From: Planctomycetota bacterium
Lineage (GTDB): Bacteria; Planctomycetota; Uabimicrobiia; Uabimicrobiales; JABWCH01
Length of the DNA stretch: 36,126 bases
Direction: 5' to 3'
Assembly: GCA_020057085.1 (NCBI GenBank)
Contig: JAGVGO010000118.1
Coordinates: 1 to 36,126 of the forward strand
Shown: positions 12,984-35,806 of the stretch, one piece after another
Layout of the letters: each line of letters begins with the position of its first letter
How positions within the stretch are numbered: the stretch's first letter is position 1
Made by a program: the position numbers and the translations under genes
The notes under the pieces: generated by a model
The model's database searches: none
What the model saw: the letters and a program-made list of their open reading frames with translations, nothing else
What the model was told of the DNA's origin: nothing

Positions 12984-15900
12984 TTACTTATACACTTCCC
13001 ACGCTGTGGCCACCATTGCTTCTTTGCCATATTTTTGCAACAACAACAGCCCTCTTTTCTCTTCTCCCGCGTAGAAATAGAGTACACCAAGGGCCAGCTC
13101 GACGAGGTCGCTGCGACGATTTTTGCTTAATGACTCCATGTTTTGCATGCCAAGTTCACTTATTTTCAGCATAATATCCTCGTCTTTCACTGTCTTCAGG
13201 AAAATGGTTCCTTCGCCCACTTTAAGAACTTTGCCGGTAAATTTTTCGTTTGTGTATGTATAGAAAGTGGAGCGTCGGTTGGTCATTTTTTGCGCCTCTT
13301 TTTCCGCCAGAGCGAACAACTCTCGCAGGCCATCATGCTCACGCCGCAAGGTGGCAAGGTAGCTGTCGAGCAATTTTTTCATATGCGGGCTGCTGGTGGT
13401 GATGTTCGCCATTTCTTGCAGCAGGCGGGTTGCTTCTGCAAATTTACGTGCCTGCATGGCATCACGGTAGCCCTGCAAAAACTGTTGACGATAGCGGTTG
13501 TTAAATTCTGCGACATTGCCTTGCTTCTGCTCGACCTCAGTTTTATTGGCATCCACTTTCTGTTTCAGTTGCTGGAGAAGATTCTGGTTTTGCTGGTAGC
13601 GTTCCTGTAAAGAGGGGACATCGCGTAGAAACTCTTCTAAGGCTGCCTCATCACTGGTCCATGCCTGCGATGGCAGGTCTGACGGCATGGCCATGCGTTG
13701 GCTGGCCGTCTGCAAAGATTGGCTCTCCTGTACTAAGACTTCCTGCGCATTTTGTACGATTCGTTCCTTCATCTTGACCAACTTGTCCTGATAAGATTCC
13801 CCCAGCATGTCGTTAGTGCGCTGCAACTCTTGAGGAAAATGTTTACACGCCTGCCAGGCTTCGGGCAGCTTGTGCAGCTGGTAACTCATGGTGATTTTCT
13901 GGTAACACACGTCGGCCTCGCGTGCAATCTCTTTTTGCAAGCGGCTAACGAGACTTCGCACGTCGGGTATCAGCAAGGCATGCATATAACGCTCCTGAAA
14001 AGATTGTGCAGCTTCCAGTTTGCTCAGTTTGTCCTCGATTGTGGTCTGCGGGCGCATGGCGACAGCTTGCCATTTGTGCCGTAATTCCGCTATCTGTAAC
14101 TGCAGTTTCTCGATTTCAGCCAACAAGAGCGCCACGGCGTTTTGTTCGCTTAACAGGTGATAGCTGGCATACACCCCTTGCTGGCGGCAATGACTGTCCC
14201 ACTTGAATTCTTGCAGATTTTGCATAACTGGGGTAATGAGATCGAGATAGCGACTCACTTCACTTTTGTCCATCAGTCGCCTCACTTCCTGCCACAGATG
14301 CCCTATCTTGACGGAGCCTGCGGCCAGCGATTTAGCACCGAACAATTCGCTACCTCGTGGTATCTCATTGCGCACGACGCGGGTGAAAAGTTCCTTGTTA
14401 GAGGTGAAGACAAGGCAATCTTCCACGATGCCGACAGTGGGAGCGAGAGCGATTTGCATTTGCAGCACGGAAAGGTCAACGGTGTACGCAGAAACATTGC
14501 CAATTTGCCATCGGCTGCAAGCATCAGGCGGCATCTGCGTGGGGAGGCGACTGAAAAGAGTGTTGAGCAACTTGCTGGTAATGGAAGCATCACGGAGCGA
14601 GGCAGCGAAAAGGACATCACAGCTTGGCTGCTCTAAAGATTGCGGCAGATTATATACCACCAGCAAGAACTGCCCCAGGCAATTCAAGATAACCTCTTTT
14701 TCGATGACAATGTTGATATCGAACGTCGCAGCCAACTGTTTCTGCAGTTGCTGCATTAACTCTTGCATACTTTTTGCCGGAGCATTGGGCATGGATTGCA
14801 GTATCTTATCGAGTTCGTTCTTGAGCATCTGCCAACTCTGCACTATATCGCTGTTTACACATGAACACAGCAGGGGATCGCCGCTAATGCGCTGCATAAA
14901 CGGGATAGCTTTGCCGCTTCCTGTCTGGTAGAGATTGATCAATTCCGAATCTTTCTTGAGGTGCAGATAGCTCGACACCTGGATGCCGTTCGCCGCAATT
15001 TCGTAGGCAACGGCGCTGGCCAGCATATCTTTTTTCCAGATCGCCTCATGGAACAATGACTCTACGCCGGGCATGTTCATATACACATAGCCGTCACGCC
15101 GAGCGGCAAGGTTTTGCATCGTTGTCTGAAATTCCTCCAGCTCATAAAACCTCTTACCACGTCCCAGGATATCCTGTTGGAAACAAGATACCAGGTTTTG
15201 TTTATTGAGTGCGGTGTAGAATAGCGCGTATTGCCCCTGGCAACATAAGATGATACTGGGGCTGGCCTTTTGGTCGAGCATGCAATTGACACCGCCAATC
15301 CTGTCCTTGACCAGCGGCGGCAATGGCAATTTGGTCGGATTTTGCATCACTTCGATCAACTTGTTGGCATTGCCAAGAGTCGTGAATAGTACAAAATGCA
15401 GGTCTTGTAACGAAGAGCCGGTAACTGCCACACCAAGCGGCGCATCCACCGCTATACCCATCTCTTTGTAGAAATTGGCATCGAGCAAGTTGCCGCCAGT
15501 GGTGGCCTGGCTCAACTGCACAAGGTTTTCATGCAGGCGTGGGTATGCCTGCAGATTGAGTTTGCGCAGTAACCCTTCGAATGAATCACACACCAGCACC
15601 ATCTTCGTGGTGGCCGGCAGGAATTTGCCAAAGCCTATGCTCGCTGTCTGCCGCACACTAAAATACCAGTAGGCACCTGCCGCCAGTACCAACGCGACAA
15701 GCAGCAATGCCATGGCTGGTATTTTGGTCTGCTGTGAACGTCTGGCAGGAGCTTGAGCCCGGTATGACATCGCTTGCGGCGTGCTTACTCGCTCGGCTAC
15801 AGGTACAGCTTGGCGTACCTCCACTGCTTCGTCGAGCATGGCTGGTTGCGGGCGCATACGCACTGTCGCTTCTCCTGCTATATCTATCTCTTCTATCTCT

Positions 15901-17147
15901 TGCGCGGCGAGGACAGACGGCTTGGTCTGCACAGGCGGTATGCGTTTTTTATCCACCCCGAGCATTTCCAGCAAGGCACGCGGGGTTGGCCGTAAAGTTT
16001 TGTCGGCGCTTAGTAACACAGAGACAGCATGGCAGATTTGCGGTGGCACATACATGGCTGTATCATGAATCTGTTCCGGCGTTATGGTGAAAGCCTGCGC
16101 CAATTTTTGTTCGTACTCTTTGCTGTTGAGAGCGGAGAGTGGTGGTTCACCTACTACCAGCTTGTAAAAAATCGCTCCCAGAGAGAACATGTCGGCCATT
16201 ACATCCACTCCGCTCGGATTGCTGACCTGTTCGGGTGCACTGTAGTTGGAAATGACCATCCTCGCGCCAGGCAGCGTCAAATTGCTTTCGAGCGATTTGA
16301 GCAGGAAAAAACCGGTCAGCCGTACCTCACCATCTTTGTCAACCAGCAAATTTTCCGGAGAAAGATTGCGGCAAGAATAGCCATAGTCTTGCAATATCGC
16401 CAGCCCTCTGCTTACAGCGCAGACAATGTCTCTAGCTTCGTCGGACGACAGAATCGCTTTGCGGGCACTAAAATTTTCAAGTGTCTCCCCTGCGAAATAA
16501 TCCATCACCACATAAGCCAAAAATTTTTCGGGTATGTGCTGGATATCGTGGATTTTGATGAAAAATGGTGCCTCGATGGCCTTGAAGTGTTCTGCCGCCC
16601 GCAAGAAACGTTTGACCACGTCCTTGTTGTTGGTGTAAGACGGACGTAGAATCTTGAGGGCCTTACCATTCTTGGTTTTGTAGATGAGAGTGGTGGGGCC
16701 TTCTTCAATTTTTTCGAGAGAGCCGTACGTGTTTTCCAGGTACGTTTTCGTTTCTTTGGGCAAAACCTCCTGTTCGCGCCGGTATCTGCCGTCAATCATC
16801 GTACCGTTGGGGAAGGTGAAGCGAAAATTGTGGTTGCCCATATCCTGCATATCCAGCACAAACTGCTCACCGGCACCTTTGTGCACATCCACTTTCTTGT
16901 TGCTGATATGTACCGCATCCCGGCATAACAAAGTCATCTTTTGCTCAGACAGAATGCACACCACATGCTGTAGGGAGAGTCCTTTGATGTGAATGTAATC
17001 TTCTGCGCCTTTACCAATGGAAATATGTGTCACCTGTGTTTCGGGGACAAACAACTGCAACCTGCTTTCCAGGGTTTCTCTTTTTACACTGTATTCGTTG
17101 CCCAGTCTGGTGATGTGCAACCGCCAGGAATTACAAGAACTTGACAT
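12984..17147 (-). CDS. Very large membrane protein: FHA-like N-terminus, protein kinase-like (pseudokinase) domain, TM, long extracytoplasmic/coiled-coil region
   Basis: ISIGKGAEDYIHIKGLSLQHVVC (FHA-like); kinase-like region has CRN in place of HRD and TGF in place of DFG; TM IPAMALLLVALVLAAGAYWYF; start M at 17147 after AAAGGGCGAG. Confidence 0.85.
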   Translation of the reverse strand: MSSSCNSWRLHITRLGNEYSVKRETLESRLQLFVPETQVTHISIGKGAEDYIHIKGLSLQHVVCILSEQKMTLLCRDAVHISNKKVDVHKGAGEQFVLDMQDMGNHNFRFTFPNGTMIDGRYRREQEVLPKETKTYLENTYGSLEKIEEGPTTLIYKTKNGKALKILRPSYTNNKDVVKRFLRAAEHFKAIEAPFFIKIHDIQHIPEKFLAYVVMDYFAGETLENFSARKAILSSDEARDIVCAVSRGLAILQDYGYSCRNLSPENLLVDKDGEVRLTGFFLLKSLESNLTLPGARMVISNYSAPEQVSNPSGVDVMADMFSLGAIFYKLVVGEPPLSALNSKEYEQKLAQAFTITPEQIHDTAMYVPPQICHAVSVLLSADKTLRPTPRALLEMLGVDKKRIPPVQTKPSVLAAQEIEEIDIAGEATVRMRPQPAMLDEAVEVRQAVPVAERVSTPQAMSYRAQAPARRSQQTKIPAMALLLVALVLAAGAYWYFSVRQTASIGFGKFLPATTKMVLVCDSFEGLLRKLNLQAYPRLHENLVQLSQATTGGNLLDANFYKEMGIAVDAPLGVAVTGSSLQDLHFVLFTTLGNANKLIEVMQNPTKLPLPPLVKDRIGGVNCMLDQKASPSIILCCQGQYALFYTALNKQNLVSCFQQDILGRGKRFYELEEFQTTMQNLAARRDGYVYMNMPGVESLFHEAIWKKDMLASAVAYEIAANGIQVSSYLHLKKDSELINLYQTGSGKAIPFMQRISGDPLLCSCVNSDIVQSWQMLKNELDKILQSMPNAPAKSMQELMQQLQKQLAATFDINIVIEKEVILNCLGQFLLVVYNLPQSLEQPSCDVLFAASLRDASITSKLLNTLFSRLPTQMPPDACSRWQIGNVSAYTVDLSVLQMQIALAPTVGIVEDCLVFTSNKELFTRVVRNEIPRGSELFGAKSLAAGSVKIGHLWQEVRRLMDKSEVSRYLDLITPVMQNLQEFKWDSHCRQQGVYASYHLLSEQNAVALLLAEIEKLQLQIAELRHKWQAVAMRPQTTIEDKLSKLEAAQSFQERYMHALLIPDVRSLVSRLQKEIAREADVCYQKITMSYQLHKLPEAWQACKHFPQELQRTNDMLGESYQDKLVKMKERIVQNAQEVLVQESQSLQTASQRMAMPSDLPSQAWTSDEAALEEFLRDVPSLQERYQQNQNLLQQLKQKVDANKTEVEQKQGNVAEFNNRYRQQFLQGYRDAMQARKFAEATRLLQEMANITTSSPHMKKLLDSYLATLRREHDGLRELFALAEKEAQKMTNRRSTFYTYTNEKFTGKVLKVGEGTIFLKTVKDEDIMLKISELGMQNMESLSKNRRSDLVELALGVLYFYAGEEKRGLLLLQKYGKEAMVATAWEVYK

Positions 17148-17278
17148 ACTCGCCCTTTCAGAAAACGCCTTTGCCGAATTTTTCGACAATCACATTGTAA
17201 CAATTTAGTATCGCAAAAGCAAGCACTGCAACACAATGTCAGGGCACCCATCCGCACGGGACGTTTTGTTTCATAGAA

Positions 17279-19821: not shown

Positions 19822-21851
19822 CTCTTGTTCGGTTTCGCCAGCAACTGCTTCAACTTTAGCAACAGCTCGCCGACGGTGTAGGGTTTTGCCAGAAAGTGAA
19901 ACCCTTGTTGCTGGAATGTCTCTATGAACGAGGGCTGTTCAGAGTAGCCGCTCGCCAGCAGGATGCGCAGGTCTCTTTGCTTTGCAAGCAAAGATGTGGC
20001 CAGTTGCAGGCCATTTTGATCGGGGAGCACCACATCACTGAACAACACCTCGAAATGGTTTTGCTCGCACGCGAACGCGGCGAACGCTTCCTGGGCGTTC
20101 GCGGTGGCATACACGTTATACCCATGTTTGCTCAACATCTTGCTGGCAAACAACCGCAATTTTTCCTCGTCTTCCACCAGTAAAATGTGTTCACCGTTGC
20201 CACGGGAGGCTTGGAAAGCGGCTGTGTCTTTCTTCTTCTGTTCGGGTCGTTCGGCGACGTGCGGCAAATAGATTTTGAACTCCGCGCCGTGCCCCGGTTC
20301 GCTGTCAACATGAATCCAGCCATTGTGCTGCTCTACAATGCCGTAAACCACAGATAAGCCAAGCCCGGTACCTCGATCTTTTTCCTTGGTGGTGAAAAAC
20401 GGCTCGAACAGATGTTGCATGACTTCCTTGCTCATACCTGTTCCGGTGTCGGTTACCGACAGGCAAACAAATATGCCGGGCCGACCCAACAGCATCGGTT
20501 TGACGTCTTCCGTCGTCAGTGTCAGGCTGCGCGTCGCCAGCCATATCTTACCACCTCCGGGCATAGCATCGCGCGCATTGACAATCAGATTCATGACGAC
20601 CTGTTCGATCTGGCTGGAGTCTGCGTTGACGGTAGCCGGTTCGGTCTCGAACACCGTGGTAAGTTCGATATCTTCGCTGATGAGCCGGCGCAGCAGGCTT
20701 TGCATATTGCTCAACAGTTCATTGAGGTCTAAAATTCGGGGCTGGTGCTGTTGTTTCCGGCTAAAAGCGAGTAACTGGCGCGTCAGCGCGGCCGCCTGTT
20801 GGCCGATTTTCTTGATTTCCGCTATGTCCGGCCGCAATTCATGATTTTCGCTAAGCCCATCCAGCAACAGGTCGCTATAGCCGATGATAGCGGTGAGTAA
20901 ATTGTTGAAGTCGTGCGCTACACCCCCGGCAAGTAGCCCCACGGCGTCCATTTTTTGCGCTTGCAAGAGTTGTGCCTGTATCTTTTCTTTTTCTTCCTCG
21001 CTCTTTTTTCGCTCGCTGATATCGGCGATATAGCCTTCGAGAGCCACCAACTCACCTTGCGGCGAGAAGACGCCCTGGCCTTGTTCCCACACCCACTTCA
21101 TGTGATTTTGCGCATCGTAAATACGGTAGGTCAGCTCGAATGGGACACCTTGGGTCACCGCCTTCTGTACATCGCCCCATACTTTTGCCCGATCTGCAGG
21201 ATGTATCAGTTGACCGTACGAGACGCTGCGAGCGTTAATCAATGCTTCTGCATCGTAGCCGGTCAGTGCTTTGCAACCATGACTGACAAATTCCAAGGTC
21301 CAGTCTTGGTCGTTATGGCAACGGTACACCATGCCCGGCAGATTGCTCATCAAGGTAAGCAAGGTACGCTGTGTCTCACGCAACTCGCGTTCCGTGCGTT
21401 TCAATGTTGTGATATCGGTGACTATGCCCAGTATGGAGATGTCGCCTTCGTAGGTGATGAGTTCGGTGGAGATGATAGTCTCGATTTTTTGTTGCAATTT
21501 GGTAACGACAGCACATTCATAAGAAGGAGAGCAGATGCCGCGCATGTGCTTGTAAAAATTTTTAACGACGAGATCGCGCGATTCAGTGGCGATCAACGTA
21601 AGAAAATCGAATTGATCGGCGTAAAATTCGGCACGGCTATATCCCATCACTGTTTCACATTGGCGGTTGGCATATATGATGCGGCCACGCTGGTTAATGA
21701 AAATCATGTTGGGTGATTGCTCGGCCAAGGCCTGAAACTTATCCTCAGCTTTGGCCAGTTCCAGTTGTAATCGTCGAATTTCCAGCACCAGTTCTTCCCT
21801 GCTTTTTCCTACCTTTTCCATTTTTCCCTCCATTTCGCCGGCGACGGTCAT
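19818..21851 (-). CDS. PAS-PAS hybrid sensor histidine kinase with C-terminal receiver domain
   Basis: PAS regions; H-box GGVAHDFNNLLTAIIGYSD; GTGLGLSVVYGIVEQHNGWI; receiver HILLVEDEEKLRLFA...VLFSDVVLPDQNG...LAKPYTVGELL. Confidence 0.93.
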   Translation of the reverse strand: MTVAGEMEGKMEKVGKSREELVLEIRRLQLELAKAEDKFQALAEQSPNMIFINQRGRIIYANRQCETVMGYSRAEFYADQFDFLTLIATESRDLVVKNFYKHMRGICSPSYECAVVTKLQQKIETIISTELITYEGDISILGIVTDITTLKRTERELRETQRTLLTLMSNLPGMVYRCHNDQDWTLEFVSHGCKALTGYDAEALINARSVSYGQLIHPADRAKVWGDVQKAVTQGVPFELTYRIYDAQNHMKWVWEQGQGVFSPQGELVALEGYIADISERKKSEEEKEKIQAQLLQAQKMDAVGLLAGGVAHDFNNLLTAIIGYSDLLLDGLSENHELRPDIAEIKKIGQQAAALTRQLLAFSRKQQHQPRILDLNELLSNMQSLLRRLISEDIELTTVFETEPATVNADSSQIEQVVMNLIVNARDAMPGGGKIWLATRSLTLTTEDVKPMLLGRPGIFVCLSVTDTGTGMSKEVMQHLFEPFFTTKEKDRGTGLGLSVVYGIVEQHNGWIHVDSEPGHGAEFKIYLPHVAERPEQKKKDTAAFQASRGNGEHILLVEDEEKLRLFASKMLSKHGYNVYATANAQEAFAAFACEQNHFEVLFSDVVLPDQNGLQLATSLLAKQRDLRILLASGYSEQPSFIETFQQQGFHFLAKPYTVGELLLKLKQLLAKPNKS

Positions 21852-24800
21852 TCGTCTACCTCTTTTATCAGACGGAATCCGGTCTGGCTTTCGCTGCGCC
21901 CGGCAGAGAATTTTTCGCGATGTACAATGGTACAGTGAGAAGAAAGACTGTAAAACCCGCCGCCCATTTTTACCTGCCCCAGTTCCATGAGTTTTTCCGC
22001 CCCCGGCAGTACTTTGCCCATTTGCTCAGGAGTGGGCCAATCGCTACAGATTTCGGCGACATTGCCCGCCATATCGCAGCAGCCGTATGGCGAATCCCAC
22101 GGCGAAAAGTCGCCCACCCGCGCCGTGTACATATAACCATCGCTGCCCTGGCCGATAAAACTGTCATCGGCGCAGTAATTGCAACGATATACTTTGCCGT
22201 TCAGCCCCATCGCATTTGGTAATTCGTTGCCCCATGGATAAATGCGCAGCGGCAGCGGATTATCGTTGAGCGGCACGACCAATTGTCGCCGTTGCCAGTC
22301 AGGGACTTTCAGCCCGCCACGTGCAGCCTTGCTCCATTCGGCCACGGTAGGGAGGCGTTTGCCACACCACTTGGCATAAGACATGGTATATTCCAGCGAC
22401 ACATAGGCAACAGGATGTGACGGCTTTACTCCCCATGTCGGATACTGCGGCATGGGATGGCCGGTTTCTTTGCAAAATTTTTCATATTGCTGCCAGGTCA
22501 CTTCAAATTTGTCTATGTAGAAAGCGGGCAAATGCATTTGTCGCGCATTTTTTTCCGTTCCCAGCCAAAATTCGCCTGCCGGTACATACACCATTACGGC
22601 ACCGTCGTTTGCGCACAAGTATTCACCGGCTTTGGCACTCTTCGGTAGCCCTTTGCTCAATATTTCCCCGTACCAGCCACGGGAAGGCAGATAGACAATG
22701 AATTCATATTTCACTTCATTACCACTCGTGTCTTTGGCCAAAATAGCAAGCATTTGCTCACCTTCTGTCAGCGTGACAGTGGTGGCAAACGACGTGAGTT
22801 TCTCTTGCACCATGACAGGAATGCGTTCTTTATTTACCCACACCGTTTCTACTTTTTGGTCATCAACGATTTCACCTTTGACGGTAAGGTGTTGTTTATT
22901 GCATGTATAACGCTGGCCGGCCAATATTCCCGATGGTTCACTCAAGGTGATTACGGGCGCAGTGGTATCCGCTATATCGCGCCACAGCACATGCTCATAA
23001 ACTGTTTGCTGGCCACTTACCGTGATGGCGAATTTTAACTGATTGAGCCCTGGTTTCAAGATGAGATCGCTGGTGAACGCCCATAAGTTTTCACTACTGG
23101 CGTGGAAAGGCAAAATCTTGCCATTCAGCTGCACCTGTTCGAGCTTGCCGCATTCTATCAGTGCCTTTAACGCAATTTTTTCCTGGGTCAAATGTGCGCC
23201 GTTCTGCGGCCAGATATCACGGATTTGGATGTAGCTGACCATAGGTTTGTTCACAGGCAGATTCTTGTGCGGAAGAAACTCTGTATGCCGCCACCAGAAC
23301 ATTGCCAGCCAACCGACCAACAGACAGACAGCGACGAGGGCCGTAGCCAATAGCGGCCGTGTTATATATCTGAAAAAATTTTTTTTGCTATTTTGCGGAT
23401 ATTGGCCCTGTTGTACGCGCCATATATCTTCTAAAATTTCGTCTTTGCCCTGACAGCGACGTTCCGGATCTTTGGCCAACATTTTGCGAAGTAAGAGCCG
23501 TGTACCCTGGCTCACCCGTGCGCCAAATTTTTCCAGGCGAGGCGGACGCTGTGTCAGATGCTCTTGCGCCAATGCGTATTTGGTGCCGGAAAGAAACGGC
23601 AGCTGGCCGGTGAGCATCAGGAAAAATGTCACACCAAGAGAGTAGACGTCGGTACGAAAGTCGAGCTGTCTCTCCGGCTGGAATTGCTCAGGGGACATGT
23701 ACTGCGGCGTGCCCATGACACGCCATTCCTCGGTCAGTTGCAAGGGAGATTCCAGTGCTTTGGCCAGCCCGAGATCGCATATCTTGAATACTTCACCGTT
23801 TGACAGAATGTTGTCTGGGGTGATGTTGCGGTGTACGATATTTTGCTTCCAGGCATAGGTAAGGGCTTCCGTAATCTGGTAAAGGATTTCGAGCGCGCGC
23901 GTCTCTTCCATGCGTCCTACTTTAGCGACGATCTGTGACAGAGAAAGGCCCGCTACATGTTCCATTGCCAGATAGTAGATGCCATGTATGCTGCCGAAAT
24001 CAATGGCCTTGACGATATTCGGGTGATTCAGCCGTTTGGCGGCTTCCGCTTCGCGCATAAAACGTACGATATTGTCGGAAGCACTGGAAATACTGGGGGC
24101 AAATACTTTGAGAGCCACGGTGGTATTGCTGCTGGCATGGCGTGCCAGGAAGAGAAGTGCCTGTTCTTTTTCTGCCAGCATATTGACGATTTCGTAGCCG
24201 GGAATGAGCGAGTTGCCGTCCTTATCGCGAAACAGTTTGAGGTTCTGCATGTCAGCCGCTCGCACATAGCCTCTGGCAACAATGATGTCCGACAGACTTT
24301 TGCACTGTCCATGCAATTGGTACTCCACCTGGGTAGCCATGCAGGCAGAAAACTGATCCATGTCCATGAACGAGAAAGAGAGCAAAAGATGTTGCAGAAT
24401 CACATCGGCGATCTTAGTTTTGGGCGCATGTGTAAGAGGCCGTTCATGGCGTAGTGCGACAGGGGTAGTGGGCGGTGTTGGCACTTTTTTTTCAACGGGT
24501 AAAGAAATGGCTACCGGTGCAGACCGCAGTTCTGCTTTGTGGAAAAATTTCATGGGTTTTTTGCTCTGTGGCAATACGCTCGGTTGCTGAAATGAGTCTT
24601 CAAAAGTTTCCTCATCGAAGCTGCTGGCTATTTCCTGCTGGCGCGTCGCCCCATGTGATGGAAGTATCGCCGTTTCCAGGCTGGTGGAGTTTTGCGGTAA
24701 ACGGATGGGTGATGGGATAGTTTTGCGTGGATGAGCGATTTTGATGAGTGAACGCAAATAGTGCACAAATTCCTCAGGCGAACTGCACCGTTTTTGCGGA

Positions 24801-25738
24801 TCTTTATTGAGCATGCGCATGATCAGTTCATCGAACGCGGTGGTTACTGCTACGTGGCGGCTCGGTGGCAGCGGCTCTTTGTTGATATGTGCATTGCAGA
24901 AGCCGATTATCGTCTTTTCGTCGAACAACAGTTTGCCGGTGGTAATAAAATACAACGTGGCACCGAGCGAATAGATATCGGAGCGATAATCGAGGTGCAT
25001 GGCACCGGTAACTTGTTCCGGTGAAATATAATAGGGGCTACCGACAATGGTGCCCGACATGGTGATAGTGACGTTGGCATCAGCCAGCTTGGCCAACCCG
25101 AAATCGCAAATCTTGAGCGAACCGTTGGGCGTGAGGATGATGTTTTCCGGTTTGATGTCGCGGTGAGTAAGCCCTTTGCCCCAGGCATAACACAAGGCAT
25201 TGGTGATGACGACCGCGACCGAGAGCGCGTCCTCCTCTTTCATGCAGCCGAATTTATGGGCGTAAGTGGCCAGATTGTCGCCGTTCACATATTCCATGGC
25301 GAGGTAATACAAATCATCTGCCCTGCCGGAATCAAGGCCTTTGACAATGTTGGCATGGTCGAGCTTTTTGCCGATTTCAATTTCCCGCAAAAAACGGTTG
25401 AGGACAAGCGCATTATCTGTATTCTCAGGGTTGAGAATTTTGATCGCCACATCTTTGCCCAGTTTTTCCGAAAACGCCTTGTAGACGATGCCAAGGCCTC
25501 CGGAACCCAGGATTTCCTTCATGTAATAGCCGGGAATCATGCCTTCCAGATGGATCAATTGTTTGGCCGTTTTTTCGTCTATAAAATCATGTTCCAACAT
25601 GAGCTGCGACAGGGTTTTTTCCATCCCTTTCTCACGTAAACGGCCTTGCTCCTCGACGCACAACTGGAGTTGTGCGCGAGTGATCTTCTGGCTGTTGAGT
25701 GCGTACCTGCCCCAAATGACCTCGGTTGCGGGATCCAT
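21848..25738 (-). CDS. Tandem Ser/Thr protein kinase (first active-looking, second degenerate), TM, Ig-like segment, C-terminal FGE-sulfatase/SUMF1-like domain
   Basis: Kinase 1: GSGGLGIVYKA, VAIKIL, THRDIKPENI, CDFGLAKL. Kinase 2: no GxGxxG, VALKVF, VHRNITPDNI, CDLGLAKA. TM LLATALVAVCLLVGWLAMFWW. FGE-like: MVYVPAGEFWLGTEKN...DMAGNVAEICSDW...GGGFYS...TGFRLIKE. Confidence 0.92.
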   Translation of the reverse strand: MDPATEVIWGRYALNSQKITRAQLQLCVEEQGRLREKGMEKTLSQLMLEHDFIDEKTAKQLIHLEGMIPGYYMKEILGSGGLGIVYKAFSEKLGKDVAIKILNPENTDNALVLNRFLREIEIGKKLDHANIVKGLDSGRADDLYYLAMEYVNGDNLATYAHKFGCMKEEDALSVAVVITNALCYAWGKGLTHRDIKPENIILTPNGSLKICDFGLAKLADANVTITMSGTIVGSPYYISPEQVTGAMHLDYRSDIYSLGATLYFITTGKLLFDEKTIIGFCNAHINKEPLPPSRHVAVTTAFDELIMRMLNKDPQKRCSSPEEFVHYLRSLIKIAHPRKTIPSPIRLPQNSTSLETAILPSHGATRQQEIASSFDEETFEDSFQQPSVLPQSKKPMKFFHKAELRSAPVAISLPVEKKVPTPPTTPVALRHERPLTHAPKTKIADVILQHLLLSFSFMDMDQFSACMATQVEYQLHGQCKSLSDIIVARGYVRAADMQNLKLFRDKDGNSLIPGYEIVNMLAEKEQALLFLARHASSNTTVALKVFAPSISSASDNIVRFMREAEAAKRLNHPNIVKAIDFGSIHGIYYLAMEHVAGLSLSQIVAKVGRMEETRALEILYQITEALTYAWKQNIVHRNITPDNILSNGEVFKICDLGLAKALESPLQLTEEWRVMGTPQYMSPEQFQPERQLDFRTDVYSLGVTFFLMLTGQLPFLSGTKYALAQEHLTQRPPRLEKFGARVSQGTRLLLRKMLAKDPERRCQGKDEILEDIWRVQQGQYPQNSKKNFFRYITRPLLATALVAVCLLVGWLAMFWWRHTEFLPHKNLPVNKPMVSYIQIRDIWPQNGAHLTQEKIALKALIECGKLEQVQLNGKILPFHASSENLWAFTSDLILKPGLNQLKFAITVSGQQTVYEHVLWRDIADTTAPVITLSEPSGILAGQRYTCNKQHLTVKGEIVDDQKVETVWVNKERIPVMVQEKLTSFATTVTLTEGEQMLAILAKDTSGNEVKYEFIVYLPSRGWYGEILSKGLPKSAKAGEYLCANDGAVMVYVPAGEFWLGTEKNARQMHLPAFYIDKFEVTWQQYEKFCKETGHPMPQYPTWGVKPSHPVAYVSLEYTMSYAKWCGKRLPTVAEWSKAARGGLKVPDWQRRQLVVPLNDNPLPLRIYPWGNELPNAMGLNGKVYRCNYCADDSFIGQGSDGYMYTARVGDFSPWDSPYGCCDMAGNVAEICSDWPTPEQMGKVLPGAEKLMELGQVKMGGGFYSLSSHCTIVHREKFSAGRSESQTGFRLIKEVDE

Positions 25739-26748: not shown

Positions 26749-29058
26749 TTAGGCATCCCGTTTTTTGGCCGTCTTTTCGAGAATGTGCAAGACCACTTTG
26801 GAGAGACGGGAAGGCGCGACTATCCCTTCCAGGAGTTTTTTCACCGTTGCAATCTTCAGGAAAACCGCCAGATCTCGCCCCTGGCTTGCCTCGCGCAGCA
26901 TATCCACCACCTGATTCACGTCATGTATGGCAGCCACCAGACGATTGACGGTAAAAATTTCCTCCTGGCTTAACACACAAAGGCGGCCTTCCTGCGAACG
27001 GACACCGAACTCAACCTGCTCCAGCGTGCGTCCGAAGAAAAACAAATTTTTTTTACTGCTGTGCAGGGTGCGGCCGATCAGGCTGTAATATTCACTGTTC
27101 TCGGCTATCAGGTATTCGCTGCCCAGATGGCTCAGAAACGTCTTGCCTGGAGCCTCACTGAACAGGTCACTAAAAAAATGTTTGAGGCGGCCGCCGACAG
27201 CGACGTGCAGGTGCAATTCGCGTTTGAACTCCGCAAGACGTCTGGCAAAATAATCGGCACGTGGCAATGCCTCGACCTCCTGGCGCGGAAACGACACTTT
27301 GAGACGTCCGGCTTTTACCTGTAGCAGAAGGGCGATGTCACCGCGTTCATCTGCCAGAAAAATACCATAATTTTTTTCCGGCAGCAGTTGCGCCATGTCA
27401 CTGTATTTCTCGCACCATTTGCCCAGTTCGCGTATCAGGTAACTCAGCCCGGCGCAGATCACATAGTGGCGCACTTTACTGAGATCGAGAGCGCCCAGTT
27501 GTTGCGTAAGCCATTTCAGTTGTGCCGAAAGATCCGTGAAAAGACGTTTGGCACGGCTGTGTTCGTAGCGGATGATGGTAAGAAATTCTTTGCCCAGAGC
27601 CGAAGTCCATAGCGGCCACAAGGTGGCAAAATCTTCCGATGTCTCGCTTTTCAGCAGTGCCAGTAAAAATTGATTCCATCCTTCTTCAATGAGCAACCGT
27701 AATGATTTGCTGTCAATTTCGACAGGCAGGAGTGGCAGCGGCCAACTACTTATCTGTTCCTCATGGTTGTTGAGTGCCGCTTCCACCATGCCGTTGACGC
27801 CGTCGAGAATGGCTATGGTCTTCTCAACTTCCTCCCGCTCTCGTAGTTCTCTTGCCACCGGAAACACACTTTCCCAGCCTTGCCGAGAAGTCTCTGTCAG
27901 AACGGAGGATAACCAGGCGAGCGGCGGCGACGCTTGCCAGCCAATGGTATCGTGCCATCTTTTGGCAGAAATGTTAGGCAAAGATACCACATAGCGGGCG
28001 ACATCCGGATGCAACAACGGACGTTTGCCGGCAAAACGCAGTTGATTGAAGAAATCGGTGGTATTTTGCGCAAGAGTGGCCAGCATTGCAAAAATTGGTT
28101 GCGGCAATATGATTTCTTCCTGGTAGCCAATCTTCATGATCTGCGCCAGACGCGACGGAATGCCCATAATTTTAGTGCGCGGTAAGGAGTCTGAGAGATG
28201 CCTGAGGCATGTCGACAGGGAAACGCTGCCTTCACTCACATGAAATATCTGGTGGCCAGGATCGGGAGCAAGAGCAAGCAGCCAGGCGGAGAGAGCCAGT
28301 TCATAACCGCTCAAGGTGGAAATTTGCACCGGCGCATGTTGTGGCTGGCCGAACAAGGCGCCTTCGGCCATGAGGTAAGCGAGAACCATGAGACCGGCTG
28401 GTATGCCGGGTCCATACAAAGCAGGTACGCGCAGACTGTACACTTCGGTTTGTCCCGGCCGATGGTAGGAAAAAGCGATTTGCTCCGCCTGGTACAAACT
28501 TTGCGACAGAGGTAGCTGACAGGCAGGTGGCGCGCTCTCGTCCACTGGTTCTGCCGCAGAGCCATAGATCGTGGCATCGGCAAAGAATAGCAGTCGGTTC
28601 ACCCCGGCAGCAACCGCCGCCTCGCACACAGTTTGCGTGCTACCGACATTGATTTCGTAGAGCTTGAGCAGGTTTTGCTGGTACACATCCCACACATAGT
28701 CGGCATGCAGAATCAAATGCGGGCGGAAGGTGGCGATTATCTCGCGTAACTCTTGGCGGCTACCGATCTGGCGATAGCGCACATTCTGGTAGCGAGGCAT
28801 GGCAAGATAGGCGGGCGGCAAACCGACTGCCACGGCCACGATGTCTCCTACTCCATGCTGGGCCGTGAGCATATGGAGTAAATACCGCCCCAGCCATCCG
28901 GCGGCACCTGTGAGCAAGATTTTCGGACTCTCCAGTGTCTGTAACCAGGGCTGGCGCAGGAAAAAAATTTGTTCGGCCAAAGCGGATAAATCATAGGAAA
29001 ACGGCATATCCGCATCACAGTGCGTGTTGAGCGGCCATGGATAAGGCGAAGCTGGCAT
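26749..29058 (-). CDS. Extended SDR (NAD-dependent epimerase/dehydratase-like) fused to a ~390-aa C-terminal region of unknown function
   Basis: GAAGWLGRYLLHML nucleotide-binding motif, LLFFADATIYGSAAEPVDE, SLYQAEQIAF at the YxxxK position; C-terminal half not recognised. Confidence 0.8.
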   Translation of the reverse strand: MPASPYPWPLNTHCDADMPFSYDLSALAEQIFFLRQPWLQTLESPKILLTGAAGWLGRYLLHMLTAQHGVGDIVAVAVGLPPAYLAMPRYQNVRYRQIGSRQELREIIATFRPHLILHADYVWDVYQQNLLKLYEINVGSTQTVCEAAVAAGVNRLLFFADATIYGSAAEPVDESAPPACQLPLSQSLYQAEQIAFSYHRPGQTEVYSLRVPALYGPGIPAGLMVLAYLMAEGALFGQPQHAPVQISTLSGYELALSAWLLALAPDPGHQIFHVSEGSVSLSTCLRHLSDSLPRTKIMGIPSRLAQIMKIGYQEEIILPQPIFAMLATLAQNTTDFFNQLRFAGKRPLLHPDVARYVVSLPNISAKRWHDTIGWQASPPLAWLSSVLTETSRQGWESVFPVARELREREEVEKTIAILDGVNGMVEAALNNHEEQISSWPLPLLPVEIDSKSLRLLIEEGWNQFLLALLKSETSEDFATLWPLWTSALGKEFLTIIRYEHSRAKRLFTDLSAQLKWLTQQLGALDLSKVRHYVICAGLSYLIRELGKWCEKYSDMAQLLPEKNYGIFLADERGDIALLLQVKAGRLKVSFPRQEVEALPRADYFARRLAEFKRELHLHVAVGGRLKHFFSDLFSEAPGKTFLSHLGSEYLIAENSEYYSLIGRTLHSSKKNLFFFGRTLEQVEFGVRSQEGRLCVLSQEEIFTVNRLVAAIHDVNQVVDMLREASQGRDLAVFLKIATVKKLLEGIVAPSRLSKVVLHILEKTAKKRDA

Positions 29059-29067
29059 GTGTATTTC

Positions 29068-30759
29068 CTATCTTTCTTTGGCAGTTTTCATCAACGCCAG
29101 AAATTCGGTATAACTGGCGACATGGAATATCTGGTCGCGTATTTCTCTGTTCTGGAGGGTGGTGGCGATGTCGGCAATGATTTCCATTTCGGCGCCGTCG
29201 TTGTTTTTGGGAGTCAGGATCAGGCAGATGATGCGCGCAGGCCTGCCGTCGGCTGCATCGAAATCTATACCAGTCTCGGAAATACCTAGTGCCACGAGCG
29301 GTGTATTGAGCCCCTTGACACGCGTGTGTGGTACCGCCACGCCATCATCGAGGCCGGTCGGCATGATTTGTTCCCGCAACCATACCGCGGCGGCGATATG
29401 GGAGGCGTCCAAATGGTTATGGACAGTGCAGATTGCGTTGGTCAGCTCTTCGATTGTTTTTTGCCTCTCCTGTGCCGCCAGCCATTTGATGAAACATTTG
29501 GCCGCCATATAGTCGGTAAAACGCCGCGCCTCCTTGAGTTTGAGGATACGTTGCATGATCGGCCCACTCATGAGCGATGTAGCAAGTGCCACGATGACGA
29601 CGCTCTCCATCAACGTGTTACTGATGATACCCAACTGGTAAGCGACGAGTCCAAGGATGATCTCCATAGCCCCGCGGGCATTGAGACAAAACGCCAGAGC
29701 CAACGACTCATTGGGTGCCATACGGCATAGCCTGGCCCCCAGCAAACATCCGACGATCTTACTGCCGCAGGAAAGAACGAGTAAGAGCAAAGTCAGAAGC
29801 CAGTCGAAATTGGCGACAAAATCCATTTTGAGGCCAATGCTGGCGAAAAAGAGCGGGGCGAAAAAAGAGGAAATGAAATTGTCCATCGTGGCGCGAGTGC
29901 GCTCACGCAGATGCGGTGTATCGCCAATGGCAATGCCCATCATGAAAGTGCCGAAGATGGCATGAATGCCTATCCATTCGGTAAAAGCCGCGCCCAAGAG
30001 CGCCAACGACAGGACAAAGCTGAGTACGCCGCTTGGCCAACTGGCATGAGCCTGAATCCACGGCCATACGGCATGTATCAGCCAGCGTCCCGCCGTGAGC
30101 ATCAGCAGTGTAAAGAGTGCGGTAAGGGCGATGGTGTAACTGACTGGCAACGTGTAGCGGGCGGGCGATTCCGTAATGCTCAAGATGAAGGCGAAGATGA
30201 CCCAGCAGGCCAGATCGTTTAGCGCAGCTACGCCGATCACCACCATGCCCATATCGGAACGGTACAGATTGAGATCCATCAAAATTTTGGCAATAACCGG
30301 CAACGCAGAGACAGAAACCAAGGTGGCAAAAAACATGGCAAAGGCTAACGGCTTGGTGTGGGCCATGCGTCCCAGGCTCTCTGGCGCTGACCAGGCTGCC
30401 GCCATACCGATCAGGAAAGGAACGCTAATAGCAAAAAAACCAATGAGCAAAACCGTCTTTCCCTGTTTCAAAATATTGGCAAAATCCAGTTCGATGCCGG
30501 CTACCAGCAGGAACAGGGCAACAGCAATGGTCGTGATAGCGGCGAAAGCAACGGCATTGTTGCCTTGCGTCGGAAAAAGAAACGCGGTGAGCTGAGGTGC
30601 CAGCGAACCAAGTACCGTAGGCCCCAGTAAAATGCCGGCGAGGATCTCGCCTATCACCGTCGGCTGGCGCAACCGTTTAGCCATCTCCCCCAGAAAACGG
30701 GCAGCAGCCAGGAGCAGGCCAAGAGACAGGAACATCACCATAATTTCATGGCTGGACAT
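29068..30759 (-). CDS. CPA2-family cation/proton antiporter fused to a C-terminal PTS EIIA type-2 (PtsN-like) domain
   Basis: PTVIGEILAGILLGPTVLG, FLLVAGIELDF, FCLNARGAMEIILGLVAYQLGII; C-terminus REQIMPTGLDDGVAVPHTRVKGLNTPLVALGIS (EIIA active-site His). Confidence 0.93.
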   Translation of the reverse strand: MSSHEIMVMFLSLGLLLAAARFLGEMAKRLRQPTVIGEILAGILLGPTVLGSLAPQLTAFLFPTQGNNAVAFAAITTIAVALFLLVAGIELDFANILKQGKTVLLIGFFAISVPFLIGMAAAWSAPESLGRMAHTKPLAFAMFFATLVSVSALPVIAKILMDLNLYRSDMGMVVIGVAALNDLACWVIFAFILSITESPARYTLPVSYTIALTALFTLLMLTAGRWLIHAVWPWIQAHASWPSGVLSFVLSLALLGAAFTEWIGIHAIFGTFMMGIAIGDTPHLRERTRATMDNFISSFFAPLFFASIGLKMDFVANFDWLLTLLLLVLSCGSKIVGCLLGARLCRMAPNESLALAFCLNARGAMEIILGLVAYQLGIISNTLMESVVIVALATSLMSGPIMQRILKLKEARRFTDYMAAKCFIKWLAAQERQKTIEELTNAICTVHNHLDASHIAAAVWLREQIMPTGLDDGVAVPHTRVKGLNTPLVALGISETGIDFDAADGRPARIICLILTPKNNDGAEMEIIADIATTLQNREIRDQIFHVASYTEFLALMKTAKER

Positions 30760-30822: not shown

Positions 30823-32280
30823 TTATAGCTGCTTTATTTTGTCAATCAGCTGCGAAGTGCTGTAACCCGCTTCCAGCGGATAAAGCTCAACTACGCCGTC
30901 ATAGCTTTCTACCACCTCTTTGCCGACCACCCCTTTTTGTGCCCAGTCAGAGCCTTTGACAAGGACATCGGGCCTGATTTTTTCGATCAACACAGCAGGC
31001 GTCAGCTCGCCAAAAATCGTCACATAATCCACCGCGGACAGCGCGGACAGCATTTCGGCACGATCATTTTCCGGCACAATAGGCCGATGCCCTCCTTTGA
31101 GGGCATGCACCGAGCTGTCGCTGTTGAGTCCTACTACCAGAATATCGCCACGTCTTTTGCAATATTCCAGATAGCGGACGTGACCGGGATGCAGCAGATC
31201 GAAACAACCGTTGGTGAACACGACAAGCCTCCCTTGACTACGCTGCCATTCAAGCCGCAGCAGCAAATCCGGCAAAGCCTTGATCTTGCCGAGGTGCGAC
31301 ACCGGTCCTTCGAGAAACTTGGTCTCCAGTTCGCGCGGCGTCACTGTGGCAGTACCTACCTTGCCTACAACGATGCCGGCCGCGGTATTGGCCAGACGCG
31401 CCGCCGTTTTCCATGGATAGCCGCAACTGGCTGCCAGGCTGAGCAAAGTGAGTACCGTGTCGCCGGCACCGGCCACGTCGAATACCTCGCGTGCTTCGGC
31501 GGCGATATGTGCATCCCCCTGGTGGCGAGAACTGATAAATAGCCCCTTGGCCCCCAACGTGATCACTGTAGCATCCAGATTGAGTTCACTCACGAGTTTG
31601 TGCGCCGCTTCACTTATATTTTCTTCGCTCTTGATGGATATACCCGTCACCATTTCCGTCTCGACACGGTTGGCGGAGATCACATCCGCACCACGGTAGC
31701 GCTGCCAGCTTTTGCCTTTCGGCCCGACGAACACTTTTTTGCCCTGTGCCTTGGCTACGGCAACCAGTCGCTCACAGAGGGTATCGCTCAGTACTCCCTT
31801 GGCATAATCGGACATGACAAGCCCCTGGCACTCCCCAATATGGGCGGTGACAAATGCCAAAATTTTGTCGCTGAATTCACTCGACACCGGCTGGCGGGTT
31901 TCACGGTCGGTACGAAGCAGATGATGCGCATGCGCAATGAGCCTGGTCTTGGTGGTGGTAGGCCGACCGGCATCACGGAAAATACCGGCGGTGCCAAGGC
32001 CCGTATCGACGGCGAACTGGCAGAACAGATCGGCGTTGCGGTCGTCTCCCACCACTCCGCACACGTATGCCCGTGCGCCCAGTGTCACCAGATTGTTGGC
32101 AACATTGGCTGCCCCGCCCAGACGATACTCTTCCTTTTCGACATCGAGAATCTGAATGGGCGCTTCCGGTGATACGCGGTTGACATTGCCAAACGCATAA
32201 TGATCGAGAATGAGGTCCCCTACGACTATCAACTTGCAGCGACGAAAATTGTCCAAGATTTCTTGAATGCGACTCGACAT
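30823..32280 (-). CDS. hldE: Bifunctional heptose-7-phosphate kinase / heptose-1-phosphate adenylyltransferase
   Basis: VVGDLILDHYAFGNVNRVSPEAPIQIL, GGAANVANNLVTLGA, DVAGAGDTVL, then VVFTNGCFDLLHPGHVRYLEYCK, KGSDWAQKGVVG. Confidence 0.95.
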   Translation of the reverse strand: MSSRIQEILDNFRRCKLIVVGDLILDHYAFGNVNRVSPEAPIQILDVEKEEYRLGGAANVANNLVTLGARAYVCGVVGDDRNADLFCQFAVDTGLGTAGIFRDAGRPTTTKTRLIAHAHHLLRTDRETRQPVSSEFSDKILAFVTAHIGECQGLVMSDYAKGVLSDTLCERLVAVAKAQGKKVFVGPKGKSWQRYRGADVISANRVETEMVTGISIKSEENISEAAHKLVSELNLDATVITLGAKGLFISSRHQGDAHIAAEAREVFDVAGAGDTVLTLLSLAASCGYPWKTAARLANTAAGIVVGKVGTATVTPRELETKFLEGPVSHLGKIKALPDLLLRLEWQRSQGRLVVFTNGCFDLLHPGHVRYLEYCKRRGDILVVGLNSDSSVHALKGGHRPIVPENDRAEMLSALSAVDYVTIFGELTPAVLIEKIRPDVLVKGSDWAQKGVVGKEVVESYDGVVELYPLEAGYSTSQLIDKIKQL

Positions 32281-32621
32281 GCTACATTGTCCTAAAAATT
32301 TTTACGATTGCACAATATGTTCAGTGCTGAGTGTACCAAAAAAAGGCCTTTTCGGCAAGTCACTTTTCCCACGCTGCCACCGATAAATTTTTTGTGCGAC
32401 TGCCAGAAATTTGCAAGGCATTCATGGCTGCTTTATAGGAGCGGAATTTCAATTGTCTTATCTCAGAGCATCGGCAAAAAATCGGGAACATTGAAAAATA
32501 AGGCGTCTTGAAAGGGTATAGCCCTAGAAATATTACGAGGCCAACAGGAGAAGCTGATTCTATCATAGCTATGAAATTCATTGACAATGCCAGTCATAAC
32601 CAGTAAAATTATTGACGATTT

Positions 32622-32799
32622 GGCTACTTCGACTTGCTGTTCGGCGCTGCCAAAATCAATCTTAAGATCGTTGCCCATTCGTTACCGCGAGCGCATCTAT
32701 GTCACCACCAATACCAATATCCAACGCTGGCGGCATGGCTGGTTATTGTTATCAATTGTTATCAATGGTGGTGTTGGCGGCACGGAGAAATTCATATGA
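32622..32799 (+). pseudogene. Frameshifted relic of the 3' end of the family 2 glycosyltransferase at 33578-35059
   Basis: Near-identical to 34889-35060; peptides FGAAKINLKIV and LPIRYRERIYVTTNTNIQRWRHGWLLL are in different frames. Confidence 0.88.
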
Positions 32800-33581
32800 A
32801 ACTGTTACATTGGCTGAAACTTCCAGAGGCTCGCACCATTGTCAATCTGGATGACCCCAGTACGACGCTACTGCATGCCCAGATTATTCGTCGCAAAAAA
32901 TTTCTCAGAAAGTTGTACATAGATTTCTACACGCAATTCAAAAAAGACGTGACTCATCTGCCGGTACGCGGTCTGTTTGTGGAACTTGGCAGCGGCGGCG
33001 GTTTCATCAAAGAAATCTTGCCCAACGTCAAAACTTCTGATGTTCTGGATTTGCCAAATGTAGACATGCATTTTTCCGCCCTCGCTATGCCTTTCACCAG
33101 CCACACGGTGGACGCTTACCTGGCAATTAATGTCTTGCATCATCTCCCTGATGCGACAAAATTTTTTCGTGAAATAGATCGCACACTCAAACCGGGAGGT
33201 CGTCTCATCATGGTCGAGGAGGCCAATACTTGGTGGGGCCGCTTTATCTATCGCAATTTTCACCATGAACCATTTGTGACTGACGCAACAGACTGGGGTT
33301 TCCCGTCCACAGGTCCACTTTCATCGGCCAACGGAGCCATAGCATGGATCATTTTTTATCGCGACAGACAAAAATTTAAAGAACTGTTCCCTTCTCTGCA
33401 TGTCTATCGTTTGTCTCCTCATACTCCATTGCGTTATTTATTGAGTGGCGGAATGACTTTGCGTCAACTGTTGCCCTCTTTTACCTACGATTTCATTAAA
33501 ATTATGGAAACAATTATGTCGCCATTCAATAAATACTTAGGCATGTTTATGACTATCGGTATAGAAAAAATCGATCAATGA
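32796..33581 (+). CDS. SAM-dependent class I methyltransferase
   Basis: GLFVELGSGGGFIKEILPNVKTSDVLDLPNVD, LAINVLHHLPDATKFFREIDRTLKPGGRLIMVEE. Confidence 0.85.
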   Translation: MKLLHWLKLPEARTIVNLDDPSTTLLHAQIIRRKKFLRKLYIDFYTQFKKDVTHLPVRGLFVELGSGGGFIKEILPNVKTSDVLDLPNVDMHFSALAMPFTSHTVDAYLAINVLHHLPDATKFFREIDRTLKPGGRLIMVEEANTWWGRFIYRNFHHEPFVTDATDWGFPSTGPLSSANGAIAWIIFYRDRQKFKELFPSLHVYRLSPHTPLRYLLSGGMTLRQLLPSFTYDFIKIMETIMSPFNKYLGMFMTIGIEKIDQ

Positions 33582-35059
33582 TGACGAACGGCTTGGGTAC
33601 GCAGCAACATGGGAGCAAAATCATGGAAAACTCAGCAAGATACCAACAATACAAACAGCAACACGTCGCACACTGGGACGCAGTAGCACGCCAAAGAGAT
33701 ACCTGGCAAGGGTGGGGAGGCTACTATCACCGGCGTATCAATAAAATTTATCGCTTTCTTTGTGGCACTGACGCCAGAATTCTGGAAATCGGTTGCGGGC
33801 AGGGAGAACTTCTCGCGGCTCTTGAGCCAGCGCAAGGTGTCGGTATAGATTTTTCTCCGGCCATGATAGAGCGCGCCCGTCAAAAATACCCGCAATTTCG
33901 TTTTGTCGAAGCCGACGCTCACTCTATCTCTTTGCCTGACAAATTCGACGTAATCATTCTTTCCGATCTGGTGAATGATTTATGGGATGTAGAGACCGTT
34001 TTTCAGCAAATAGTCCCTCTTACCACACCACGCACTCGCATCATCCTCAATTTTTTCAGCCGCATGTGGGAGTTGCCACTGGCATTGGCACAAAAGATGA
34101 GACTTGCCAATCCGTCCCTACCCCAGAACTGGCTTACGGTCGCTGACATTGCCAATTTGCTTGGCCTGGCCGATTTTGAGGTAACCCGCCATTGGGAAGA
34201 AATTTTGTTGCCTTTGCCTTTCCCTCTATTGAGTGGTCTGGCAAACAATTATCTGGCCAAAATCTGGCCATTTTGGTGGGGCGATCTCACTCATTTCATG
34301 GTAGCCCGCCCGTGCCCGCAAGCAACAACAGAGAAAAAAAACCCGACAGTTTCGGTCATTGTTCCGGCGCGCAACGAAGCGGGCAATATCGCCGATATCT
34401 TCCGCCGTACACCGCAAATGGGAGACGGAACAGAACTGATCTTTGTCGAAGGCGGGTCACGCGACAATACGTACGAGGTGATTGCCCAGGCTATGCAAGA
34501 GTACCCTGGAACAAATTGCAAACTTCTGAAGCAGACAGGTAAAGGCAAAGGAGATGCTGTGCGTGTGGGATTTACACAAGCATCGGGTGATATCTTGCTG
34601 ATCCTCGACGCCGATCTGACCGTGCCGCCGGAAGATTTGCCGCGTTTCGTAGCAGCGCTGTCCAGCGGTAAAGGAGATTTTATCAATGGCGTAAGGCTGG
34701 TGTACCCAATGGAAAAACAGGCTATGCGTTTCCTCAACCTGATAGCTAACAAGTTTTTCAGTGCGGCTTTCTCATGGCTGTTGGGACAGACGATCAAGGA
34801 TACTTTGTGTGGTACGAAGGTATTGTGGCGCGAAGATTATGAACTGATAGCTGCCAATCGTCCGTACTTCGGAGATTTTGATCCGTTCGGCGACTTCGAT
34901 TTGCTGTTCGGCGCAGCCAAACTCAATCTCAAGATCGTTGACTTGCCCATTCGTTACCGCGAGCGTATCTATGGCACTACCAATATCCAACGCTGGCGGC
35001 ACGGCTGGTTACTGTTGCAAATGGTGGTGTTTGCTGCTCGCAGGATTAAATTTATATGA
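33578..35059 (+). CDS. Fusion: N-terminal class I methyltransferase + C-terminal family 2 glycosyltransferase
   Basis: ILEIGCGQGELLAALEPAQGVGIDFSPAMIERA; then VSVIVPARNEAGNIADIF, DILLILDADLTVPPEDLPRF. Start at 33578 (overlapping upstream stop) or 33623. Confidence 0.9.
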   Translation: MMTNGLGTQQHGSKIMENSARYQQYKQQHVAHWDAVARQRDTWQGWGGYYHRRINKIYRFLCGTDARILEIGCGQGELLAALEPAQGVGIDFSPAMIERARQKYPQFRFVEADAHSISLPDKFDVIILSDLVNDLWDVETVFQQIVPLTTPRTRIILNFFSRMWELPLALAQKMRLANPSLPQNWLTVADIANLLGLADFEVTRHWEEILLPLPFPLLSGLANNYLAKIWPFWWGDLTHFMVARPCPQATTEKKNPTVSVIVPARNEAGNIADIFRRTPQMGDGTELIFVEGGSRDNTYEVIAQAMQEYPGTNCKLLKQTGKGKGDAVRVGFTQASGDILLILDADLTVPPEDLPRFVAALSSGKGDFINGVRLVYPMEKQAMRFLNLIANKFFSAAFSWLLGQTIKDTLCGTKVLWREDYELIAANRPYFGDFDPFGDFDLLFGAAKLNLKIVDLPIRYRERIYGTTNIQRWRHGWLLLQMVVFAARRIKFI

Positions 35060-35071
35060 GAAAGAAATCTT

Positions 35072-35806
35072 ATGGAACAAGATAGAAGTACTCTGCTAAA
35101 CCATGAAATCGAGCACGGTAAAAAAATCATAGATAATGCCGAAGAAGTATGGGGGTGGTCGTCTCATGCAGGGCGAATCAGGGCAGATCGTAGGGCAAAG
35201 TACATCAAAGACCTCACCGCTATGACCAGTGGCCAATCGGTTCTCGAAATAGGCTGCGGTACCGGCCTGTTTACCGAAAAATTGTTGAGTACCGGCGCGA
35301 AAATTACGGCGACCGATCTGTCACAAGATTTACTGGCAGTTGCCAAAACAAGGCTGGGCGAACAGTGTAGTCTGTGTACTGCCGATGCCCATAGTCTCCC
35401 CTGGGACAATGATACTTTTGATATCGTTTACGGAAGTTCCATATTGCATCATTTGCAAGTAGAAAAGGCTCTCGGTGAGGTATATCGTGTTTTAAAAAAA
35501 GACGGGCGCATGCTGTTTGCAGAACCGAACATGTTGAATCCGCAAATTTTGCTGCAAAAAAATATAGAGTGGATAAAAAAAAGACTGGGTGATTCACCAG
35601 ACGAAACCGCCTTTATCAGATGGAAAATAAAGAAACGAATGCAAAAGATAGGCTTTATTGACTTACAGGTTTTTCCTTACGATTTTTTGCACCCGCTTAC
35701 GCCCGTCTTGTTGATACCATTCGTAAAAACACTGGGGAAGCTGTTGGAACGTACACCATTTTTAAAAGAATTCGCTGGGTCGTTGATTATTTATGGTAAA
35801 AAATAA
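35072..35806 (+). CDS. SAM-dependent class I methyltransferase
   Basis: VLEIGCGTGLFTEKLLSTGAKITATDLSQDLLAVAK, DIVYGSSILHHLQVEKALGEVYRVLKKDGRMLFAEPN. Confidence 0.9.
   Translation: MEQDRSTLLNHEIEHGKKIIDNAEEVWGWSSHAGRIRADRRAKYIKDLTAMTSGQSVLEIGCGTGLFTEKLLSTGAKITATDLSQDLLAVAKTRLGEQCSLCTADAHSLPWDNDTFDIVYGSSILHHLQVEKALGEVYRVLKKDGRMLFAEPNMLNPQILLQKNIEWIKKRLGDSPDETAFIRWKIKKRMQKIGFIDLQVFPYDFLHPLTPVLLIPFVKTLGKLLERTPFLKEFAGSLIIYGKK

Follow-up and report, generated by a model that had tools for sequence, protein, structure and literature searches.

A glycosyltransferase gene in the window (the whole 36,126-nt stretch of DNA that was analyzed) is present twice at its 3' end, once as part of an intact gene and once, 2.3 kb upstream, as a degenerate segment directly in front of a methyltransferase gene. 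The locus thus raises the question of what this segment is, and how it came to lie there. The features on which the answer depends are the following, with coordinates counted from the first nucleotide of the window:

30823..32280, minus strand: hldE (heptose-7-P kinase / adenylyltransferase), the divergent neighbor beyond the promoter
32581..32609, plus strand: predicted sigma-70-like promoter, TTGACA-17-TAAAAT, 11 of 12 consensus positions, ending about 10 nt before the relic
32619..32799, plus strand: relic, the degenerate last ~58 codons and stop codon of MTGT, with indels of about -5, +6, +10, and -4 nt
32784..32787, plus strand: GGAG, Shine-Dalgarno-like, inside the relic and 8 nt before the MT1 start, read in the sequence
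32796..33581, plus strand: MT1, SAM-dependent methyltransferase (Methyltransf_11), whose ATG overlaps the relic stop codon
33623..35059, plus strand: intact MTGT, a fusion of an N-terminal methyltransferase domain and a GT2 domain (open reading frame listed from 33578)
34886..35059, plus strand: segment of intact MTGT homologous to the relic, from repeat search, genome DNA search, and alignment
35072..35806, plus strand: MT3, SAM-dependent methyltransferase of a family other than that of MT1, from domain, homolog, and pairwise comparison

The first-pass annotation had taken the upstream segment for a degenerate copy of the 3' end of the glycosyltransferase gene, and this was borne out. When positions 32600-32800 were searched against the DNA of the whole genome, the only matches were the query itself and 34886-35059 (E = 1.0e-39, 78% with gaps), a similarity far above chance. 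The copy starts at 32619, possibly a few bases earlier, and ends at 32799, spanning about 180 bases. A repeat search resolved it into four ungapped blocks of 77-93% identity with spacings of 2267, 2272, 2266, and 2256, which means that the two copies differ by indels; in the alignment, the +6 indel of the relic is a repeat of ACCAAT, and the +10 indel a repeat of TGTTATCAAT. The two conserved peptides said to lie in shifted frames do so, FGAAKINLKIV being read in the frame of 32601 and LPIRYRERIYVTTNTNIQRWRHGWLLL in that of 32602. Homology extends through the stop codon of the glycosyltransferase gene, with ATATGA at 32794-32799 in the relic and at 35054-35059 in the intact copy. The ATG within the former is the start of MT1, at 32796, in agreement with the earlier statement that the segment ends at the methyltransferase ATG.

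Only ~58 of the ~478 codons of MTGT remain in the relic, and the gene is both truncated and disrupted in frame. Two substitutions, D to Y and G to V, fall at sites that are invariant in 84 homologs. Such frameshifts and changes at invariant sites are what would be expected after constraint was lost. We conclude that the segment is a gene relic (a pseudogene fragment) of MTGT, and no longer a gene. Positions 32281-32618 contained no further pieces of MTGT, and the genome held no third copy, its other GT2 matches being at most 34% identical. Gene finders should be used with caution here, as the open frame of MT1 can wrongly be extended into the relic (ORF 32634-33581).

The gene from which the relic derives had been described as a GT2 glycosyltransferase. 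The encoded protein does carry a C-terminal GT2 domain, but it is not a plain GT2 enzyme: a SAM methyltransferase domain occupies its N-terminus, and the two domains are encoded by one ORF with full-length homologs. The gene is a methyltransferase-GT2 fusion, for which we use the name MTGT. Since the alignment to most relatives begins only around residue 15-25 of the ORF starting at 33578, the ATG at 33623 is the likelier start, which is also favored by a GGAG motif. Relatives with 58-69% identity over nearly the full length were found in Anaerolineae, Syntrophaceae, and other lineages. The family is distributed over different phyla; among relatives from the window's own order, no full-length member was detected.

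To relate the two copies, both were placed in a codon alignment with the 84 homologs, from which a FastTree tree was built. Over 152 aligned columns, the relic shares 87.5% identity with the intact copy, and at most 77% with any of the homologs. The two are mutual best matches and were joined as sisters with a support of 1.0, with a branch length of 0.17 for the relic and 0.04 for the intact copy. Between them are 19 substitutions, distributed over codon positions 1, 2, and 3 as 4, 2, and 13; twelve are synonymous and seven are not, and third-position divergence is 25%. Because 13 of the 19 fall at third positions (binomial P = 0.002, although only 19 differences underlie these counts), the lost copy probably remained functional during much of the time in which the two diverged. 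The pattern fits a copy that would have been first constrained and then dead.

Gene order was surveyed at the MTGT loci of 80 relatives. In eight of these (L040, L056, L059, L068, L087, L097, L108, and L115), an MT1 homolog lies directly 3' of MTGT, on the same strand and at a distance of 0-27 nt. As MTGT directly precedes the MT1 homolog in these relatives, the relic occupies the usual MTGT slot before MT1. Even the junction is matched, as the MTGT stop and MT1 start of L115 overlap as ATGA, exactly like the relic stop position and the MT1 start. An MT3 homolog directly follows MTGT on the same strand, within ~45 nt, in three of the 80 loci (L041, L046, and L083). All three genes are found in one run, MTGT-MT1-MT3, in L108, while MT1 adjoins MT3 in another genome (G036, locus L133), and MTGT precedes an MT1-like gene in a third (G082, locus L147). 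In the order-level relatives the locus is absent, and the state before the loss was not seen in any close relative. Conserved linkage to hldE found no support either: in five order-level relatives, the regions analyzed around that gene carry no homolog of MTGT, MT1, or MT3.

In the window, the surviving MTGT is flanked by MT1 and MT3, with 12 nt separating it from the latter. We considered whether MT1 and MT3 are duplicates of each other, and rejected this, as their identity over the SAM-binding region is 23%, and closer homologs of each one adjoin MTGT genes elsewhere. Of the ancestral tandem unit of glycosyltransferase and methyltransferase that had been proposed, the duplication with loss of most of one glycosyltransferase gene therefore stands, while the idea that both methyltransferases are its kept duplicates is not supported. 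Separately, the MT1 homolog in a genome of the same phylum (L126 / L134, G050:C212) has one TGA and one TAG in the matched stretch, and may also be decaying.

These comparisons give good support to a duplication after which most of one copy was lost, because the copies are sisters and, in several relatives, MTGT lies in the exact place of the relic before MT1. In the history that we consider likely, the ancestral operon would have begun with MTGT-MT1, followed by MT3, as suggested by the relatives. A tandem duplication of MTGT, alone or with MT1, would then have given MTGT-MT1-MTGT'-(MT1')-MT3, in which both MTGT copies appear to have been kept for a time under coding constraint, as the third-position divergence suggests. 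The upstream copy would next have become redundant, and a deletion would have taken everything between the promoter and its last ~180 bases. The slippage indels and missense changes now present in the remainder presumably accrued after this. As a net result, the order MTGT-MT1 would have been swapped to MT1-MTGT, leaving MT1-MTGT-MT3. The duplicated unit was either MTGT alone or MTGT-MT1; in the block version, MT1' would have been lost as well, and the 12 nt that separate MTGT from MT3 retain no certain trace of it. The end of the intact copy, ATATGAGAA, may be a vestige of MT1', as it resembles the MTGT/MT1 overlap of L115, a weak likeness given that 12 of 86 homologs end in ATGA.

The intact copy could also be a newcomer that arrived by horizontal transfer from a close relative rather than a tandem duplicate. 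A fuller form of this idea is that two modules, MTGT-MT1 and MTGT-MT3, were merged by horizontal transfer from close relatives, after which the first MTGT was redundant and decayed. Such two-gene modules exist separately (L040, L056, and L115 versus L041, L046, and L083), transfer of the locus is plausible for a family that spans phyla without a full-length member in the order relatives, and a third-position divergence of 25% would fit two donors that are close relatives of each other. Nevertheless, we consider a merger unlikely: the relic is the fully supported sister of the intact copy, with no other sequence nearly as close, and the single run of all three genes in L108 and the adjacent MT1 and MT3 in G036 make it unneeded.

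Far less probable is an assembly artifact, in which the relic would stem from a different strain or organism in the metagenome. The contig does come from a fragmented draft (288 contigs, 59% complete), but a pair of copies that differ by 19 substitutions and several indels, and whose longest exact match is 24 nt, does not fit a collapsed or duplicated repeat, and the junction of relic and MT1 is the one seen in relatives. We find it similarly hard to credit that selection keeps the relic, be it as a regulatory leader or as an arm of homology through which recombination could delete or amplify MT1. In favor of such a role speak the promoter-like site just upstream, the Shine-Dalgarno-like motif inside, and a terminator-like hairpin at 32726-32743; however, no Rfam family was detected, and the count of two terminator-like sites is unremarkable when 0.8 are expected. 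Indels are accumulating, no conserved counterpart was seen, and at most 24 nt of exact identity between the copies offers little for homologous recombination.

The predicted promoter is the only plus-strand site in the window that reaches 11 of 12 positions, a score reached by 7 of 1,000 random-sequence controls of the promoter region, and it probably drives MT1-MTGT-MT3. With this promoter just upstream and the GGAG inside it, the relic probably serves today as the operon's untranslated leader and carries the ribosome-binding site of MT1. Tentatively, the operon could be viewed as part-way through an order swap by duplication and loss, in which the original promoter was kept and the tail of the dead gene was reused as leader and ribosome-binding site of the next.

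Several other multidomain or long proteins are encoded in the window, all on the minus strand. These are a CPA2-type Na+/H+ antiporter that carries a fused PTS EIIA-2 domain at its C-terminus (29068-30759), a 769-aa protein with an N-terminal NAD-dependent epimerase domain and a long stretch without Pfam match (26749-29058), a 1296-aa protein that matches protein kinases twice and has an FGE-sulfatase (formylglycine-generating enzyme-like) domain at its C-terminus (21848-25738), and a 1401-aa protein in which a protein-kinase domain close to the N-terminus is accompanied by ~1000 residues without Pfam match (12984-17189).

Duplication and loss at a polysaccharide operon is an ordinary kind of event, and the relic does not change the understanding of any system. 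Its value is that of a small but legible record of gene reordering in surface-polysaccharide operons. A literature search on glycosyltransferase pseudogene remnants in O-antigen clusters returned a general genome description only, and one on methyltransferase-glycosyltransferase fusions gave no match. The fusions of Anaerolineae, Syntrophaceae, and others (e.g., L039, L040, and L041) have both domains in common with the intact protein, and several of their loci have downstream methyltransferases as found here; unlike the present locus, none of the 80 surveyed contains two close MTGT copies side by side. A close parallel is tandem duplication and random loss, a model known from gene-order change in mitochondria. 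While duplication of the full block would need the additional loss of MT1', the remnants left by this process are like those described here: a partial copy with disabling indels in the ancestral slot, an intact paralog downstream, and a changed gene order.
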